Assembly: GCA_002868985.1 (NCBI GenBank)
Contig: PKTV01000088.1
Location: 1 to 12,227 of the forward strand
From: Desulfobacteraceae bacterium
GTDB lineage: Bacteria; Desulfobacterota; Desulfobacteria; Desulfobacterales; UBA11574
Length of the DNA stretch: 12,227 bases
Direction of reading: 5' to 3'
Shown: positions 1,786-8,725 of the stretch, one piece after another
Numbering within the stretch: position 1 is the first letter of the stretch
Layout: every line of letters begins with the position of its first letter
Position numbers and translations under genes: made by a program
Notes under the pieces: model-generated
The model's input: the letters and a program-made list of their open reading frames with translations, nothing else
What the model was told of the DNA's origin: nothing
The model's database searches: none

Positions 1786-2421
1786 TCAACGATCTTTTAG
1801 GCAATCATATACATCTTTAATCATCTCTTCTGAAATTTTAGACAGTGCCTGACTCATGGCTTCGGCCACTGCTCTCGGCTTTTTCTGCTGACATACTTCT
1901 GCTTTCCGATAGGTTTTCTGATATAAAATCCTATTTTTGATATCATTTTTGTTTTTCTCGGTTAAAATAATGCTGACCGTAAGGATTGCTTTCCATTCAT
2001 TTTGAGTATCCCATTCGAAAAATTCATCTACCGTCCCTTCAATCATATGCGAAGACGAAAATCGACTGCCAGGTTCTAACACAGCTTTAAAAAGGCCTGA
2101 ATTTTTGATGTCACGGTTTAGCAGCGTGGTTACGATAGCCCCGGGGTTGGGCTGCCATCTATAATAAACATATGTATCTCTTTTAAAAGATCGATCCCTG
2201 TAAATGATTTGACTGGTATTATATGGTGGTGCCACTGTGAAACGGTCCATTCGGATGACATGGGGCAAAGGACTTAAGGTTTTCATTTGTGGAGGAGGAT
2301 ATTCCAGCGTATAGTACTCGATTTTATTTACCGGTTGTTTCAGACTCACGCAAGCCCCAAAGAGTATGGGAAGACTGATAAATATGAGAAATAAAAGATA
2401 GATTTTATTGAACCATTTCAT
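1786..2421 (-). CDS. ABC-type transport auxiliary lipoprotein, PqiC-like
   Basis: The protein has 211 residues. Residues 7-23 are a hydrophobic signal (IYLLFLIFISLPILFGA) ending at Cys24, which fits a lipoprotein signal although Phe21 at the -3 position is a poor lipobox residue. After it come IEYYTLEYPPP and a conserved-looking VIRMDRFTVAPPYNTSQIIYR, the usual opening of the PqiC/YmbA-type auxiliary family. The family places this protein at the outer membrane as partner of an MCE protein. The C-terminal half (strand-rich, then helix AVAEAMSQALSKISEEMI) also fits. It is the last gene of the five-gene mla operon, starting 10 bases after the mlaD-like stop codon, which suggests translational coupling. 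Its proposed job is to dock the MCE tube to the outer membrane; that is inference from the family and context. Confidence 0.78.
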   Translation of the reverse strand: MKWFNKIYLLFLIFISLPILFGACVSLKQPVNKIEYYTLEYPPPQMKTLSPLPHVIRMDRFTVAPPYNTSQIIYRDRSFKRDTYVYYRWQPNPGAIVTTLLNRDIKNSGLFKAVLEPGSRFSSSHMIEGTVDEFFEWDTQNEWKAILTVSIILTEKNKNDIKNRILYQKTYRKAEVCQQKKPRAVAEAMSQALSKISEEMIKDVYDCLKDR

Positions 2422-2431
2422 AAAACTGTTT

Positions 2432-3448
2432 TTACCTTTCGCCGTCGGTCTGATCCACTATTCTTGGAGCCGGCGGTTCTCCAAACATGACTTGAGACGG
2501 ATGATCAGCAACAATCTCGATTAATCTGTTCAGGTTTTCACTTGCCTTTTCCAAATTTTGGGTAATGATTAAAATTTGTCCCTTGAGTTGTGATATTGAA
2601 TCGTCTGTTTTGTCCGTCAGAAAATTACCTTTCTTTAAAAGTGTGTTGGCATTTTCCATGGATAGTCTAAAATCTTCAATGGCGGTTTTAATGCTCTGTT
2701 CCTTTTCAACGGTGATTCCTTCCATTCGAAGAATGGTGTTTTCAACATGATTCATGCTGTTGCTGGTTTTATCCATTATGTCATTAAGAGATTGACCGGC
2801 TTCGTCCGCAGATGCCATGATGCTGTCCCATCTTTTATCCTCCAAAATTTGACCGGCACGATCAATCGATTTTTCAATTTTTTCAGAAATATCTTTTACA
2901 TTGGCATGGGCTGTCACCTGCTCTATACTTTGGAGCGTCAATTGAATTTTTTCAGAGATTTTTTCTAAATCCATTGCCCTGATCTGGTTAAGTGCGTCAT
3001 CTATGCTATGTAACATTTTGGAGATATTAGATGGTTTTGAGGCGACGATGGGATATTCCGAAGGGAAACTTAAAGGTGGTGAAAGATCAGGTGCACCATT
3101 TGTCTTGCGATCCAGTTCTACAAACATACTTCCGGTAATCCCAACGGATTTCAACTGAGCAAAGATATTGTTGTCAAGTTTTTGATCGGACTCGATTTTT
3201 AATACGACTTGTATCAAATTTGCGTCAGGGGCAACAACAATACGTTCCACCCGGCCAACGGATACACCCCGGTATTTTACCGGGGAATCCGCATCCAATC
3301 CCTGAACGGACTCATTAAAATAGGTCGCGTAATAGTGACCCTTTTTAAAATATCGTGACATGCCCAACCATATGACGGCTAGAAAAATCATGCCAATGCC
3401 ACAGGTCACAAATAATCCAAGGGCAAATTTAGTTTTTTGAGAGGCCAT
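2432..3448 (-). CDS. mlaD: MlaD/MCE family substrate-binding protein with long helical C-terminus
   Basis: The 338-residue protein starts with a short cytosolic tail, one membrane segment (about residues 8-30) and one MCE domain (about 38-115; note VQGLDADSPVKYRGVSVGRV and SVGITGSMFVELD). A helical region follows (about 141-315), with heptad-like hydrophobic spacing (ISEKIQLTLQSIEQV, LNDIMDKTSNSMNHV), then a tail DHPSQVMFGEPPAPR of the kind common at the end of MCE proteins. E. coli MlaD is about 180 residues, so the extra helix is the notable part: MCE proteins of this build can assemble into a hexameric lipid tunnel. The start has a good ribosome binding site (AAGGA, 7 bases before the ATG). 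It sits between mlaF and the lipoprotein gene, in the usual family order. Expected role: moving lipid across the periplasm. Confidence 0.88.
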   Translation of the reverse strand: MASQKTKFALGLFVTCGIGMIFLAVIWLGMSRYFKKGHYYATYFNESVQGLDADSPVKYRGVSVGRVERIVVAPDANLIQVVLKIESDQKLDNNIFAQLKSVGITGSMFVELDRKTNGAPDLSPPLSFPSEYPIVASKPSNISKMLHSIDDALNQIRAMDLEKISEKIQLTLQSIEQVTAHANVKDISEKIEKSIDRAGQILEDKRWDSIMASADEAGQSLNDIMDKTSNSMNHVENTILRMEGITVEKEQSIKTAIEDFRLSMENANTLLKKGNFLTDKTDDSISQLKGQILIITQNLEKASENLNRLIEIVADHPSQVMFGEPPAPRIVDQTDGER

Positions 3449-3495
3449 TAAGATATCCTTACAAAAGCGGTATTAAACCTTTCAGGTTCTTTTTT

Positions 3496-4251
3496 TTAAT
3501 TTTCTGACTTACGGTTGAAAAAGTTCCTAACAAATAGATTTTCGCTATGATCTTTCAGATGCTCGGGATTACCTTCGGCGATGATCCCTTTGGTTTGTTT
3601 GTCCAGCATGATGACCCTGTGCGCTACATTAAAAATGCTTTGAAGTTCGTGTGTTACGATTACCATTGTCGTCCCGAGACTCTTGTTGAGATGTATAATA
3701 AGGTTGTCGAGTTCGACAGATGTTACTGGATCGAGTCCGGCAGAAGGCTCGTCGAAAAATAGAATTTTAGGGTTAAGGGCCATTGCTCTTGCCAATCCTG
3801 CCCGCTTTCTCATTCCTCCACTGATTTCAGACGGTAAATGGTTTTCATACCCTTTTAGATTCACCATATTTAGCTTCATTTTGACCAGTGTATCCACTGA
3901 TCTTTGAGGCAAGTCGGTGTATTCTTTTATAGGAAGAGACACATTCTCAGCAATTGTCATTGAGCCGAAAAGGGCTGTGCTCTGGTAGAGGACGCCGATT
4001 TTTCTCAAAATATTTTTAAATGCTGTCTCATCACAGTTGGATAGTTCTTCCCCATCAATGTTTATCTGGCCGGATAGAGGGGGTATTAGTCCAATCAGGT
4101 GTTTCAGTAATGTGCTTTTTCCGCACCCACTTCCCCCTAAAACAATAAATATTTCTCCCTCCAGAACATCAAATGATATATTTTCAAGGATAATATCGGT
4201 TCCATAGCCGACAGTAAGATCTCGGACTTGGATTATTTTATGTTTTTCCAA
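3496..4251 (-). CDS. mlaF: MlaF-like ABC transporter ATPase
   Basis: The 251-residue protein carries a complete ABC ATPase set: Walker A GGSGCGKST (39-47), Q-loop Gln90, signature SEISGGMRKR (141-150), Walker B ILFFDEPSAGLD (163-174) with catalytic Glu168, and switch His201. The signature with GGM followed by KR, and the SAGLDPVTS that follows Walker B, are typical of the MlaF/Mkl branch that powers MlaE permeases. The start is TTG at 4251, supported by GGAG 8 bases upstream; the nearby ATG at 4257-4259 is out of frame. The gene lies 61 bases downstream of the mlaE-like gene. It should hydrolyse ATP in the cytosol to drive lipid movement through the STAS-MlaE permease. Confidence 0.93.
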   Translation of the reverse strand: MEKHKIIQVRDLTVGYGTDIILENISFDVLEGEIFIVLGGSGCGKSTLLKHLIGLIPPLSGQINIDGEELSNCDETAFKNILRKIGVLYQSTALFGSMTIAENVSLPIKEYTDLPQRSVDTLVKMKLNMVNLKGYENHLPSEISGGMRKRAGLARAMALNPKILFFDEPSAGLDPVTSVELDNLIIHLNKSLGTTMVIVTHELQSIFNVAHRVIMLDKQTKGIIAEGNPEHLKDHSENLFVRNFFNRKSEN

Positions 4252-4312: not shown

Positions 4313-5449
4313 TCAGCTCAAGTACGTCAATATAACCGCAAAAATTGAATCAAAAGCGATGATCAAAAAAATACTGCTGACAACGGCAGAGGTTGTCGCA
4401 TGGCCCACAGCGGCCGCCCCGCCTTTAACGCGAAAGCCCCTTAAACACCCAATCCAGGATATAAGCAGTGCAAAAACACCGCTTTTGAAGATTCCCAAAA
4501 GGATGTCAAAAAGGCTCAAGGTCTTAAGCGTTTGTAAAATGTATGCGTTTGCTGTCAAATCCAGCATGAAGACACCCACCGTCATCCCTCCCAATATGGC
4601 AAAGACGTCGGAAAATAAGGTCAGGATGGGAACCACAAGAACAGAAGCCATGATCTTGGGAACGACCAGATACCGTGTAGGGTCAAATCCCATGGTAAAA
4701 AGAGCGTCGACTTCTTCGGATATCTTCATTGTACCTATCTCTGAGGCAAATGCTGAACCGGATCGTCCAGCGACAACAATTGCCGTCATAATGGGACCTA
4801 ATTCTCGAGTCATCGCCAGACTTACCAGTGAAGCCACATAAATATTAGCACCAAACATCTGGAGTTGAATTGATGACATAAAGGCCATGATGAGGCCCAT
4901 CATAAAACTGATCATTCCCACAATCGGAACGGCATCAACCCCTGTTTTTTGCATGTAAAGAAACGTGTTGTCCATCCGCAATGTTTTAGGATGAAGAATG
5001 GAATAAACAAATGCCAGACAGACAGATCCCACAAATGAAATCTGATATTTAACCTCTGTTGCAAACTTTAGAATAGCATCTCCAAACCTGATAAACATAG
5101 AAGGAGGGCGAACTTTGATCAATGGAGGTGTTTCAGCCAAAGCGCCTGAATTGAGAATAAAAAGCACTTCTTCTCTAGCGTTTTTTAAATTAAATTGACC
5201 TTTTGCAGCGGTCATCATATCTTTTAATTCAACAAGCACGAGCGCCCCGAAATCATCCAGGTAAGTCACCTTTTTAAGATCTATGGTTAGTGAAACAGGT
5301 TTCCGATCTTTTATCAGCGAGCCAAACAATTCGATCATTTGAGAGGCATTGGTAGAATCGATTCTACCCTGGAGATAGAATGTAATTTCTCCATCATTGC
5401 TTTCTGAAATTTCATATTGGCAAGACTGAATATCTTTAAAACTATCCAT
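4313..5449 (-). CDS. mlaE: MlaE-type lipid transport permease with fused N-terminal STAS domain
   Basis: The 378-residue protein joins two domains. Residues about 10-105 are a STAS domain (VSLTIDLKKVTYLDDFGALVLVEL), the counterpart of separate MlaB in E. coli. Residues about 120-378 are an MlaE permease with hydrophobic helices and the family's most conserved stretch at 215-250 (RELGPIMTAIVVAGRSGSAF, then SEEVDAL). E. coli MlaE is about 260 residues, so the extra length is the STAS domain. At the STAS position usually holding a phosphorylatable Ser or Thr (Asp-[Ser/Thr]-x-Gly), this protein has Asp65-Asp66-Phe67-Gly68, so the switch residue appears replaced by acid. It should sit in the inner membrane, bind MlaF and the MCE protein, and pass lipid. 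The ribosome binding site is weak (AGGA about 11 bases upstream). Confidence 0.92.
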   Translation of the reverse strand: MDSFKDIQSCQYEISESNDGEITFYLQGRIDSTNASQMIELFGSLIKDRKPVSLTIDLKKVTYLDDFGALVLVELKDMMTAAKGQFNLKNAREEVLFILNSGALAETPPLIKVRPPSMFIRFGDAILKFATEVKYQISFVGSVCLAFVYSILHPKTLRMDNTFLYMQKTGVDAVPIVGMISFMMGLIMAFMSSIQLQMFGANIYVASLVSLAMTRELGPIMTAIVVAGRSGSAFASEIGTMKISEEVDALFTMGFDPTRYLVVPKIMASVLVVPILTLFSDVFAILGGMTVGVFMLDLTANAYILQTLKTLSLFDILLGIFKSGVFALLISWIGCLRGFRVKGGAAAVGHATTSAVVSSIFLIIAFDSIFAVILTYLS

Positions 5450-5510: not shown

Positions 5511-6812
5511 CTAAAAAATAAATTGCTTTGAGCCTGACACATCCGTGCCATAGTCCGTCTTCAATCGATGAAGATCTAATTGAAAAATCAACCAGCCGAT
5601 TCGACGATTGTTTTTGTTCACTTCAAAGGCGATCTCAATGCTTTTCTGGCCCATGGGATGATCTTTGTCTGCTCGATAAAGGGTGAGTACGCTGTGGGTA
5701 GCGTTCTTGCCGTCTTCAAAATCTATCCCTTTATAACTGCCTTTTATTGTTGGCGAAATATTTGTACCGGTGCTTATTGAACATGCATCAAATACGGTCT
5801 TGTTCTTATCCAGTAATACGAGACCGTTATATGGCACTTTGTCCGGTTTTTGAATGTTGAGAAAATCCTTCATCAACCGGCTTGTTTTTGACCGGTCGCC
5901 GGATTCAAAAGGATTTACCAACATTGATTTCAACAAAAGGTAATCTTTGTTTAATCGGTTTTTCAATCCCAGATGATTAACATCCATTATCCGGGGTCTT
6001 TTTGAGAAGTGCGAATGACCCCAAAAAACACCTAAGGCCAGAAGAAAAATTAAAATCAAGGATGGGAAAAGCCAGTAACGGGTCTGACGGTATTTCTTTT
6101 CTAACGTTTTAACAGATGTGATATCACGACCCAATGAAAGAATTCCCTGAAAGTTATCGTGATCGTCGTGAAGGAGGGTTGAGCTGGTGGATATAAACCG
6201 AACCCCGTTTTTAGGATGTCTGATACTAAGGATTTTTTCTCTTACAGAATGTTTTTTCTTAACCTCTTCAAGCAATTTTTTATAAACTTGTGGTTTTTCG
6301 TAGATTTCTTCCACTGACTTGTTGCACATCTGATCCCAGGACCTGCCGTATACTTCTTCTGCCGCAGCATTCCATGTGATGATTTTTCCTTCTTTATCGG
6401 TTGCAATAACCGCATCAGGCAATTGGTCGCAAAACTCTTTGAGCCCATAGAGTATCCGGCTCGTTTCATCAAGACGTTTGGCCAGAAGCTTTGATATTTC
6501 TCCAGCCACTTCGGGAAAATCATGAAGAAAGGCAGTGATCTCATCCTTGGGTATTCGGATCGCGGTTACATTCTCCCCTGCTTTTATCGTTGCCGTTCGT
6601 TTGGCTTTAAGAAGGAAAGACATTTCTCCAAACAACGATCCCTTCTCGGTGATTTCGGCTATTTTTGTATTTCCTTTGAAGACATTGAGCTGGCCGGATA
6701 CAAGAATAAATAGATCCTGTGAATCATCATTTTCCAGAAATATCGCCTTTCCTTCCTCAAAAGGGGTGATATATCGATTTACTTTAACATTTTTGATAAC
6801 TTCTTCTAACAT
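5511..6812 (-). CDS. Membrane-anchored sensor: cNMP-binding domain, PAS domain, one TM segment, periplasmic Cache-like domain
   Basis: The 433-residue protein reads in order: a cyclic-nucleotide-binding domain (about 10-115) with phosphate-binding cassette FGEMSFLLKAKRTATI (61-76; Glu63, Arg72 and Thr73 kept); a PAS domain (about 125-235; LPDAVIATDKEGKIITWNAA, ILSLGRDIT); one membrane helix (about 247-266); and a C-terminal domain (about 270-433) with strands GLVLLDKNKTV and RIGWLIFQLDL that resembles a single Cache fold. There is no histidine kinase, GGDEF, EAL, HTH or methyl-accepting domain. The predicted layout puts ligand-binding domains on both sides of the membrane but shows no known output. 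It is first in the operon, 61 bases before the STAS-MlaE gene, and follows the sigma-54 promoter, so it may tune lipid transport. The start lacks a clear ribosome binding site. Domain assignments are firm for cNMP and PAS, weaker for Cache. Confidence 0.82.
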   Translation of the reverse strand: MLEEVIKNVKVNRYITPFEEGKAIFLENDDSQDLFILVSGQLNVFKGNTKIAEITEKGSLFGEMSFLLKAKRTATIKAGENVTAIRIPKDEITAFLHDFPEVAGEISKLLAKRLDETSRILYGLKEFCDQLPDAVIATDKEGKIITWNAAAEEVYGRSWDQMCNKSVEEIYEKPQVYKKLLEEVKKKHSVREKILSIRHPKNGVRFISTSSTLLHDDHDNFQGILSLGRDITSVKTLEKKYRQTRYWLFPSLILIFLLALGVFWGHSHFSKRPRIMDVNHLGLKNRLNKDYLLLKSMLVNPFESGDRSKTSRLMKDFLNIQKPDKVPYNGLVLLDKNKTVFDACSISTGTNISPTIKGSYKGIDFEDGKNATHSVLTLYRADKDHPMGQKSIEIAFEVNKNNRRIGWLIFQLDLHRLKTDYGTDVSGSKQFIF

Positions 6813-6896
6813 AAATTTGCGTTTTGACTAATGGATTGATCTCATATCAGGTGTATTCAAAAAATTCAGATCTTACTGTGAAACATGAACATCCGA

Positions 6897-6912
6897 TGCA
6901 ATAGATGTGCCA
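6897..6912 (-). promoter_or_regulatory. Sigma-54 (RpoN) promoter of the mla operon
   Basis: The minus strand reads TGGCACATCTATTGCA, which is TGGCAC-N5-TTGCA, an exact match to the -24/-12 consensus with the essential GG and GC ten bases apart. Transcription would start near 6886 and give a leader of about 74 bases before the ATG at 6812. It points straight into the five-gene operon. Sigma-54 promoters need an AAA+ enhancer-binding protein; none is encoded in this window. Confidence 0.8.
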
Positions 6913-7136
6913 CAGTTTGGATGAAAGAGATAAGTTTGATAACATATTAAAAAAGGATATCAATTCAATGTGATACGTAGATAAAACACGAAGCTTTTGA
7001 AGGTGTGGGAAGGTGTGTTGAAATGAAAGGGCATTGGGGTGCCAAATTTTTGACAGAAATTGTTTTTAATAATTAAACTTCGTCGATGAAAGACTGAATT
7101 TAAAAATCGCTTTTTTCCTCCAAAGGCGGGTTTCCG
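6913..7136. other. Upstream region of the sigma-54 promoter, no gene seen
   Basis: No credible ORF lies here. The region holds TTGATA (6936-6941) facing TATCAA (6958-6963), a small TATCA/TGATA inverted pair near 6958-6975, a tandem GAAGGTGTG repeat (6999-7017), and a T-rich stretch past 7041. These may be activator or IHF contacts for the sigma-54 promoter, or trailer sequence of the J/HTH gene ending at 7137. No convincing intrinsic terminator is visible. Confidence 0.4.
6999..7017. repeat. Tandem GAAGGTGTG repeat, possible enhancer site
   Basis: GAAGGTGTG occurs at 6999-7007 and again at 7009-7017, one helical turn (10 bp) apart. This is about 113-131 bp upstream of the predicted sigma-54 start site, a usual distance for enhancer-binding-protein sites. 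The repeat is seen directly; the role is inference. Confidence 0.35.
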
Positions 7137-7808
7137 TCATTTTGGGTCTGAATCATTTGTTTTTTTAGAAAGAGAAATGGTTTTTAAATAACCGTCGATA
7201 ATTTTCTGAGGATTTATCTGTAGAACTTTTGCATAGGATCTCAAAAAACTTCTTAAGTAAGTATCCGGAGGGAGCTCTTCAAACCGGTTTTCTTCGATGG
7301 CTTTTAAAACAGAGGCGCTTATTTTAGTAATATATTGAATTTCTGTTATTTTGACACCAACGGCGTTTCTTAGCTTTTTTAAATCATCTCCTGAAAGACG
7401 CTCTTTTAAAAGAATTTCATCTGATAGTGCTTTAACGTCTTTTGTGAGAAGTTTATCTTTAACCCTTGAATATAAATGGTTCTCATTTACACTTACATGC
7501 GTGGAGGATAGAGAGGGTGATGAGTCTTGTTTTTCCCTGGATGGAATCGACGTTTCCACTTGCCCTGAATCGACAAGCATCCGATCGTATGCCGCCCTTC
7601 TTTGGTCATCAGTTAGCGTCGAAAAAGCATTTTTGATATCTTCTATGATCTTGTCCCTTTCCTCATTTGAAAACAAAGAATATGTAACAATAGAATCTTC
7701 GTTATATAACGAAAGTGCATCTTTATATGCCCGCTTTATTTCAAAATAAGATGAAGTCATCGGAATTTTCAATATTTCATAATAATTCAATCCGTCAAAT
7801 TTTTTCAT
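7137..7808 (-). CDS. J-like domain plus RodZ-type helix-turn-helix protein
   Basis: The 223-residue protein has three parts. Residues about 8-80 resemble a J domain (NYYEILKIPMTSSYFEIKRA at the start, AFSTLTDDQRRAAYDRML at the end), but the His-Pro-Asp triad is absent: the loop reads LYNEDSIVTY. Residues about 81-125 are a polar, Ser-rich linker. Residues about 137-210 form a helix-turn-helix of the RodZ N-terminal kind (LKKLRNAVGVKITEIQYITK, ELPPDTYLRSFLRSYAKVL). Without HPD it should not stimulate DnaK ATPase activity, so the fold probably serves binding. There is no membrane segment, unlike RodZ. Its ATG overlaps the TGA of the MinD-like gene by 4 bases (ATGA), so the two are translationally coupled and probably partners. 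Target and function are unknown. Confidence 0.75.
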   Translation of the reverse strand: MKKFDGLNYYEILKIPMTSSYFEIKRAYKDALSLYNEDSIVTYSLFSNEERDKIIEDIKNAFSTLTDDQRRAAYDRMLVDSGQVETSIPSREKQDSSPSLSSTHVSVNENHLYSRVKDKLLTKDVKALSDEILLKERLSGDDLKKLRNAVGVKITEIQYITKISASVLKAIEENRFEELPPDTYLRSFLRSYAKVLQINPQKIIDGYLKTISLSKKTNDSDPK

Positions 7809-8725
7809 AACATATCTTTCGCGAATGATGCAGATGGTATTTTGCTCATAATCTGGGTTGCGATTTTTTTTAAATCGGCAGCAGATTGTGTATGAGGATA
7901 TTTATGGATATAAAGTATTTTTGAAAAAATCGCATCATGAATCCGACTGTCATAACTAATATTACCTAGAAATTGAAAAATAGAATAAAAATGCCGATTG
8001 CAGATGTTTTCAAATTGAGCGCCCAGGGTTGCATCTACGTTGTTGCGAAATTGATTGAAAATAAGCTTGAATTTAAATTCGCTTAATGTGTTTCTCAAAA
8101 ACGCTTCCTTCCCAGGGTCATATTTTAAAACAGTTTCTATAATATCAGGAGGATTAATTCTCGATCCATTTAAATCTGAAGAAGGGTCTTTGAACACCGA
8201 ATCAAATGTGTTTTTTTTCATCATTTGTTTTAATTTTCTAAAATAGACGGTTTTGATAAAACGAAAAGAATTTTCGATGGAGGTGGGTTCGGGTGTGCAG
8301 ATCAGGATTCCTTTTTTGGAAGTTAAGAAAAAATCCAGCGTGTTAAAGTTTGTCCCGGGACCTAAATCCAGAAGAATATAATCAAACGGAAGTTTTTTTA
8401 TGGCATCAATTATTTTTAGCTTTTGTGCATAAAATAAATTTGCAATTTCCATGTAGCAATGGAAAGAACTGATAAGAAATAAATTGGGGATCATCGTTGG
8501 AACCGCCGCGCTTTCAAGATTTTTCACGGTTTTGTTTAAGAAGCTGTTTAAACCGATTTTCGGGCTTTTCATTCCCAGCAAGGTATGAAGGTTTGGAGCG
8601 CCCAGATCCAAATCGATAAGCACGACTTTTTTACCCCATTTAGCGAGTAATACGCCGAGACTGGCCGTTATGAAACTTTTTCCAACACCACCCTTTCCAC
8701 CACCGATGGGATATATTTCTGCCAT
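7805..8725 (-). CDS. MinD/ParA-like P-loop ATPase (FlhG/MinD branch)
   Basis: The 306-residue protein opens with the deviant Walker A GGGKGGVGKS (8-17), whose signature lysine marks the MinD/ParA/FlhG group. It continues with LIDLDLGAPNLHTLLG (37-52; Asp40 in switch I) and DYILLDLGPGTN (115-126; Asp120 in the Walker B/switch II). CTPEPTSIENSFRFIK (143-158) matches the FlhG/MinD-type helix region. A clear C-terminal amphipathic membrane helix of the MinD type is not evident. Such ATPases dimerise on ATP and position cell structures or DNA. Here the only coupled partner is the J-like/HTH gene it overlaps by 4 bases; no flagellar, chemosensory or min genes are in view. The start is ATG at 8725 with a weak GGAA upstream, 65 bases after the gate-domain gene, so it may belong to the same transcript. 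Confidence 0.87.
   Translation of the reverse strand: MAEIYPIGGGKGGVGKSFITASLGVLLAKWGKKVVLIDLDLGAPNLHTLLGMKSPKIGLNSFLNKTVKNLESAAVPTMIPNLFLISSFHCYMEIANLFYAQKLKIIDAIKKLPFDYILLDLGPGTNFNTLDFFLTSKKGILICTPEPTSIENSFRFIKTVYFRKLKQMMKKNTFDSVFKDPSSDLNGSRINPPDIIETVLKYDPGKEAFLRNTLSEFKFKLIFNQFRNNVDATLGAQFENICNRHFYSIFQFLGNISYDSRIHDAIFSKILYIHKYPHTQSAADLKKIATQIMSKIPSASFAKDML

Follow-up and report, generated by a model that had tools for sequence, protein, structure and literature searches.

A membrane-anchored cNMP-PAS-Cache sensor heads an Mla-like operon, and profile comparison relates its periplasmic half to a lipoprotein leader of the same operon

In the stretch of DNA analyzed here (12,227 nucleotides, hereafter the window), the first gene of an operon for an Mla-like (MCE) lipid transporter encodes a membrane-anchored sensor with putative ligand domains on both sides of the membrane. 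Profile comparison indicates that the periplasmic half of this sensor, together with its C-terminal tail, is a remote homologue, end to end, of a Cache lipoprotein that heads mla operons in other classes. That the sensor's periplasmic half and a second type of leader for this operon are related is new and was unsuspected before. We propose, with a probability of roughly 0.45, that the sensor is a membrane-anchored receptor of its own operon's transporter, whose Cache domain works with the complex and to which cAMP and PAS inputs have been added. Control of Mla and other MCE lipid transporters is an open field, and the finding addresses it: if the proposal is true, an MCE transporter would be under second-messenger control by a subunit without a classical output domain, and cyclic nucleotide and the periplasm would, by way of a dedicated partner, tune one kind of bacterial lipid transporter.

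The sensor gene (5511..6812) encodes 433 amino acids and, like all of its features given here, lies on the minus strand. The layout described in an earlier sequence-only reading was confirmed: a cNMP-binding domain, a PAS domain, one membrane helix, and a C-terminal Cache fold. The cNMP-binding domain (residues 17-97; 6522..6764) matches PF00027 (E = 1.9e-15; 57 bits against a curated cutoff of 27.5), and its phosphate-binding cassette (residues 58-74; 6591..6641; placed by alignment) is intact, as that reading had held. Among the 33 sensors uncut by contig ends, Glu63 is kept in 32 and Arg72 in all 33; we take these to be the phosphate-cassette Glu and Arg of cNMP domains. A helical linker (residues 101-126; 6435..6512), located by alignment and a modeled helix at residues 100-119, with low model confidence at residues 114-127, leads into the PAS domain (residues 127-235; 6108..6434; PF00989, E = 2e-13, 50.8 bits against a curated cutoff of 22.6). 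Hydropathy and positive-inside counts place the single membrane helix (approximately residues 247-265; 6018..6074) with the N terminus inside in 35 of 35 sensors, and the C-terminal domain is periplasmic, as the same reading had supposed. This outer half comprises the Cache-fold domain (residues 275-412; 5577..5990) and a tail (residues 413-433; 5514..5576) that aligns with the corresponding tail in Cache lipoprotein leaders. No Pfam Cache model scored above cutoff on the sensor, the match to HK_sensor_dom_bact being weak (E = 0.21). A search of PDB sequences with two Cache profiles gave best matches at E = 0.5 and E = 0.017, the latter a stretch of helical apolipoprotein, and no Cache entry under E = 0.21.

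The cNMP domain has the fold and phosphate cassette of CRP-type domains; unlike in those proteins, a CRP/FNR-type C-terminal DNA-binding domain was not found on the window's sensor (Pfam up to E = 1). Its score against the transport-associated cNMP model TIGR03896 (29.7 bits) is under the NCBIfam cutoff of 161.05. The ligand of the cNMP pocket is probably cAMP, and the host genome holds 8 class III cyclase matches and 9 PF00027 matches, the sensor counted, which makes cyclic-nucleotide signaling plausible in this organism. Neither the window's sensor nor its relative L007 yielded a kinase, cyclase, or methyl-accepting output domain in the Pfam scan, so the claim that the window's protein lacks an output domain stands. 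In CitA, DcuS, DctB, and WalK, the Cache (PDC) domain has the same fold as the sensor's C-terminal half, and in kinases of this type it precedes the membrane helix and feeds a cytosolic kinase; in the sensor it follows the helix at the C terminus, with no kinase domain found. It could be argued that the sensor is a degenerate histidine kinase or chemoreceptor, its output domain lost, that survives by chance beside mlaE, since its PAS part is like that of AtoS-type kinases, albeit far under that model's cutoff, and one relative (L008) is broken. However, the domain order is reversed, with PAS before the helix and Cache after it, and the 33 uncut members align along the sensor profile (L130 only to residue 408), with invariant residues in the cNMP, PAS, and Cache domains of an 18-row alignment. 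Conservation over such deep divergence contradicts this explanation, which we consider highly improbable.

The sensor is the first of five codirectional minus-strand genes, and the four transporter genes follow in the order previously described: a STAS-MlaE permease (4313..5449; PF02405, E = 2.5e-73; PF01740, E = 4.9e-11), an MlaF-like ATPase (3496..4251; MlaF is the best NCBIfam model, under its cutoff), an MCE (MlaD-like) protein (2432..3448; PF02470, E = 1.7e-16), and an ABC_trans_aux auxiliary lipoprotein (1786..2421; PF03886, E = 2.7e-7). A gap of 324 bp (6813..7136; no strand assigned) separates the start of the sensor from the next gene on the minus strand and has no listed minus-strand open reading frame of at least 80 amino acids. 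This gap likely carries the operon promoter; a promoter scan of it returned matches equal to those in shuffled sequence. Farther upstream (7137-8725, minus strand), a DnaJ domain is fused to HTH_25 (RodZ-like), adjoining a MinD/ParA-like ATPase, and the same genome holds a second MlaE paralogue at 42% identity (G000:C55:2841-3656).

To collect the family, a scan of GTDB species genomes (8 relatives) was followed by profile searches of class and phylum samples, which gave sensor matches in 16 of 389 and 18 of 395 genomes, respectively; one phylum genome (G585) matched in the cNMP part only and was left out, leaving 17 usable. Including the window's, there are 36 distinct sensor genes, made up of 35 tree rows and the broken gene L008, with L006 and L027 cut by contig ends. 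The Pfam scan covered the window's protein and L007; the remaining uncut members were judged by profile alignment. The expectation that homologues would neighbor mlaE held for 23 of the 36, in which mlaE lies directly downstream in the same direction (14 of the 16 members from the class sample and 7 of the 17 usable ones from the phylum sample), and failed for 13 solo sensors that are not beside mla genes. On the sensor tree (35 rows, 22 linked), the linked label takes 2 changes compared to 10.8 for shuffled labels; 20 linked rows form one group (support 88/91), with L129 and L130 placed outside it. The genomes with linked members belong either to the window's order or to a set assigned no closer than the same phylum, and therefore span more than one class. 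The sensor is thus a real, conserved family with a nonrandom link to mlaE.

The solo members bear on an alternative explanation, that the effector of the receptor is unlinked (a kinase, a cyclase, or some other protein) and the shared operon serves only co-timed production with the transporter. In its favor are the 13 of 36 sensors that stand alone, two of which (L007 and L121) have an uncharacterized protein directly downstream in place of mla genes, and the loss of the sensor while mlaE stays (L008, L133). Against it, the spacing between sensor and mlaE is tight (61 bp in the window and mostly -23 to +61 bp across the compared loci, where MlaE starts were estimated from the profile match) and is kept across families beyond one class, and a related Cache protein occupies the same position in other classes. 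We therefore consider an unlinked effector unlikely. MlaE is present elsewhere in 12 of the 13 solo-sensor genomes, the L007 genome lying outside that test; these comprise 10 of 10 genomes with the solo sensors of the phylum sample, from families f88 and f143, and the class-sample genomes G097 and G120. At L008 (1090-1899), the sensor has an in-frame stop and a missing middle beside open mla genes, reflecting either natural loss or an assembly fault. The MlaE of G424 (L133) nests among sensor-led MlaE, yet this genome is absent from the 18 sensor matches of the phylum sample, and the 1.5 kb preceding its mlaE shows no sensor remnant. Since mlaE is kept in both cases, the transporter can evidently do without the sensor. 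At L130/L197 (G763:C153), the sensor frame continues into MlaE, of which the final 44 aligned residues are present ahead of MlaF, through a deletion or an assembly fault.

The Cache lipoprotein has approximately 190 amino acids and takes the same operon position as the sensor. Unlike the sensor, it has a lipobox-like Cys (invariant in 15 of 15 aligned lipoproteins) and no cytosolic part; the sensor has no lipobox or lipid anchor and instead has cytosolic domains and a membrane helix. Comparison of the sensor's periplasmic part with the lipoprotein (hhalign) gave a probability of 96.8% (E = 2.6e-10) over 150 columns, reaching the last residues of both. The match held whichever sensors were used, at 96.8% with 16 sensors, 96.3% with 22 linked, 98.1% with 13 solo, and 97.8% (E = 9.8e-13) with the Cache domains of all 35. 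Controls scored low: the reversed alignment gave 0.6%, eight column shuffles gave 0.0 to 3.8%, and the sensor PAS domain against the lipoprotein gave 20.8%. Without its last 35 columns the match fell to 92.3%. A generic Cache relation as the sole cause was weakened by a dCache_1 control, built from 29 domains of the order taken from 30 fetched loci (the partial L246 was left out), which matched the sensor Cache domain at 17% (16 sensors), 29% (22 linked), 68% (13 solo), and 64.5% (35); however, the lipoprotein itself scored 95.8% against the dCache_1 profile. With a single-profile HMM built from the lipoprotein, the sensor was recovered from only 2 of 12 genomes (G700, E = 2e-7; G663, E = 2e-4), and the reverse search with the sensor HMM found the lipoprotein in 0 of 14, and the homology is therefore remote. 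Because it covers the Cache domain and tail, the element common to both leaders is periplasmic, not cytosolic.

Searching 297 genomes for the lipoprotein gave 21 matches spread over 16 genomes. Of these matches, 15 lie immediately before mlaE, and 6 are found away from it (L208, L212, and L217 to L220). In L217, L218, and L220, the lipoprotein directly follows a frame of approximately 370 to 380 amino acids with a stretch rich in His close to its start. The lipoprotein leads mlaE in 7 of the 10 genomes of the phylum sample that carry a solo sensor, although a contig end truncates the G571 copy and an in-frame stop interrupts that of G663. Across the phylum sample, MlaE was present at E = 1e-85 or better in 70 of 395 genomes, in which mlaE was led by the sensor in 6, the Cache lipoprotein in 22, a short protein with four cysteines (Cys4) in 4, and neither in 33, with 5 at contig edges. 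A 131-row MlaE tree, in which sensor-led loci are overrepresented, many of them having been found through the sensor, held 22 sensor-led, 22 lipoprotein-led, 40 Cys4-led, 40 neither, and 7 edge rows; 21 sensor-led rows fell in one 23-row group (support 86) with L133 and the long-branch L144, and the sensor-led L141 sat apart. Within the neither class, seven loci of family f125 (L149, L150, L151, L153, L155, L160, and L166) have an NtrC-like response regulator, recognized by eye, directly upstream of mlaE. The Cys4 protein (approximately 55 to 80 amino acids; core SPCx2Cx6-7PxCx3C) leads many mla operons of the order (L046 to L066 and others) and had no Pfam or NCBIfam match above cutoff. It was considered as a mutually exclusive, swapped-in Mla regulator and rejected, given that 137 of 194 genomes in the order carry it. 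It also precedes genes other than mla, and the window's own genome has two copies away from mla (G000:C341:4186-4350 and G000:C337:10123-10308); given this wide distribution and these copies, the Cys4 leader is not used as evidence.

Coinheritance with the lipid transporter, together with the kinship of its outer half to a lipoprotein in the same position in other bacteria, suggests that the sensor probably tunes the transporter directly. We propose that cytosolic conditions are read by the cNMP pocket (probably binding cAMP) and the PAS domain, and that the Cache domain and tail work with the transporter, either by contacting the MlaE/MCE complex or by sensing the transporter's substrate. As the sole part common to both leaders, the Cache part is the best candidate for such a role. 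The state of the cAMP and PAS domains could then be relayed outward through the helical linker and the membrane helix, and the relayed signal would raise or lower lipid flux. More broadly, the phylum may have Cache-based regulators of MCE transporters to which one lineage has added cNMP and PAS domains, so that a cyclic nucleotide and an outer small molecule would jointly set flux; we hold this extension more tentatively. The lipoprotein and the sensor would be natural one-sided and two-sided versions of the same partner, which makes the question of regulation testable. Counting against the receptor proposal are the 13 solo sensors, the 6 of 21 lipoproteins away from mlaE, the 33 of 70 mlaE genes with neither leader, and a Cache half that shows weaker conservation than either the cNMP or the PAS half.

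Known systems offer partial parallels. As described in the parts of the MlaFB study drawn on here (PMC7367683), E. coli MlaFEDB has the same core of MlaE, MlaF, MCE/MlaD, and STAS, the last as a separate protein, MlaB, unlike the fused STAS-MlaE of the window. MlaB is a small partner that controls the complex after translation, as proposed for the sensor, and how active MlaB is itself controlled is called an open question there. The sensor would be an extra membrane-anchored protein with ligand domains on both sides, and none such is named for MlaFEDB in those parts. A precedent for a membrane protein acting directly on an MCE transporter is mycobacterial Mce1N, which spans the membrane with two helices and blocks ATPase binding by means of its cytoplasmic domain; the portions of that report used here name no cNMP, PAS, or Cache domain, and the comparison with the sensor is by description only (PMC10517005). 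A search of the full-text literature, with most subscription journals and preprints outside its coverage, brought up no MCE transporter with an associated cNMP, PAS, or Cache protein, and the sections consulted of a study of MCE gene neighborhoods (PMC5561183) name no such leader. Relative to the literature searched, a sensor-type regulator of an MCE transporter would be new.

The sequence-only reading had suggested that the sensor signals through the STAS domain. In this arrangement, the cytosolic cNMP-PAS half would bind STAS (or MlaF) and set transporter activity from inside, with the Cache domain as input only. The sensor and STAS-MlaE share an operon, and E. coli MlaB, a STAS protein, binds MlaF, which depends on it for stability, and is also required for the complex to assemble, according to the parts of PMC7367683 used above. 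Within the linked clade, PAS (0.64) and cNMP (0.60), along with the linker, are the best-conserved parts, compared to 0.51 for Cache, and STAS is more conserved in sensor-led than in Cys4-led operons (0.43 versus 0.29 at MlaE-core identities of 0.70 to 0.75 and 0.43 versus 0.33 at 0.75 to 0.80). However, at equal MlaE-core divergence, STAS is not more conserved than in lipoprotein-led operons (0.43 versus 0.43 and 0.43 versus 0.49), whose aligned leaders have no cytosolic part. None of the four MlaE substitutions specific to the sensor clade falls in STAS, a weak indication with only 8 testable STAS sites, and solo sensors keep the cNMP domain too (0.50 among themselves). With the shared part periplasmic, contact through STAS thus finds no specific support, and we regard it as somewhat unlikely.

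At two solo loci, the protein directly downstream of the sensor (L007:6287-7147 and L121, approximately 2883-3833) is conserved, with approximately 290 amino acids. The L007 copy had no Pfam match up to E = 0.1; by eye, the start of the protein is receiver-like (FCFIDDAAFELDNF).
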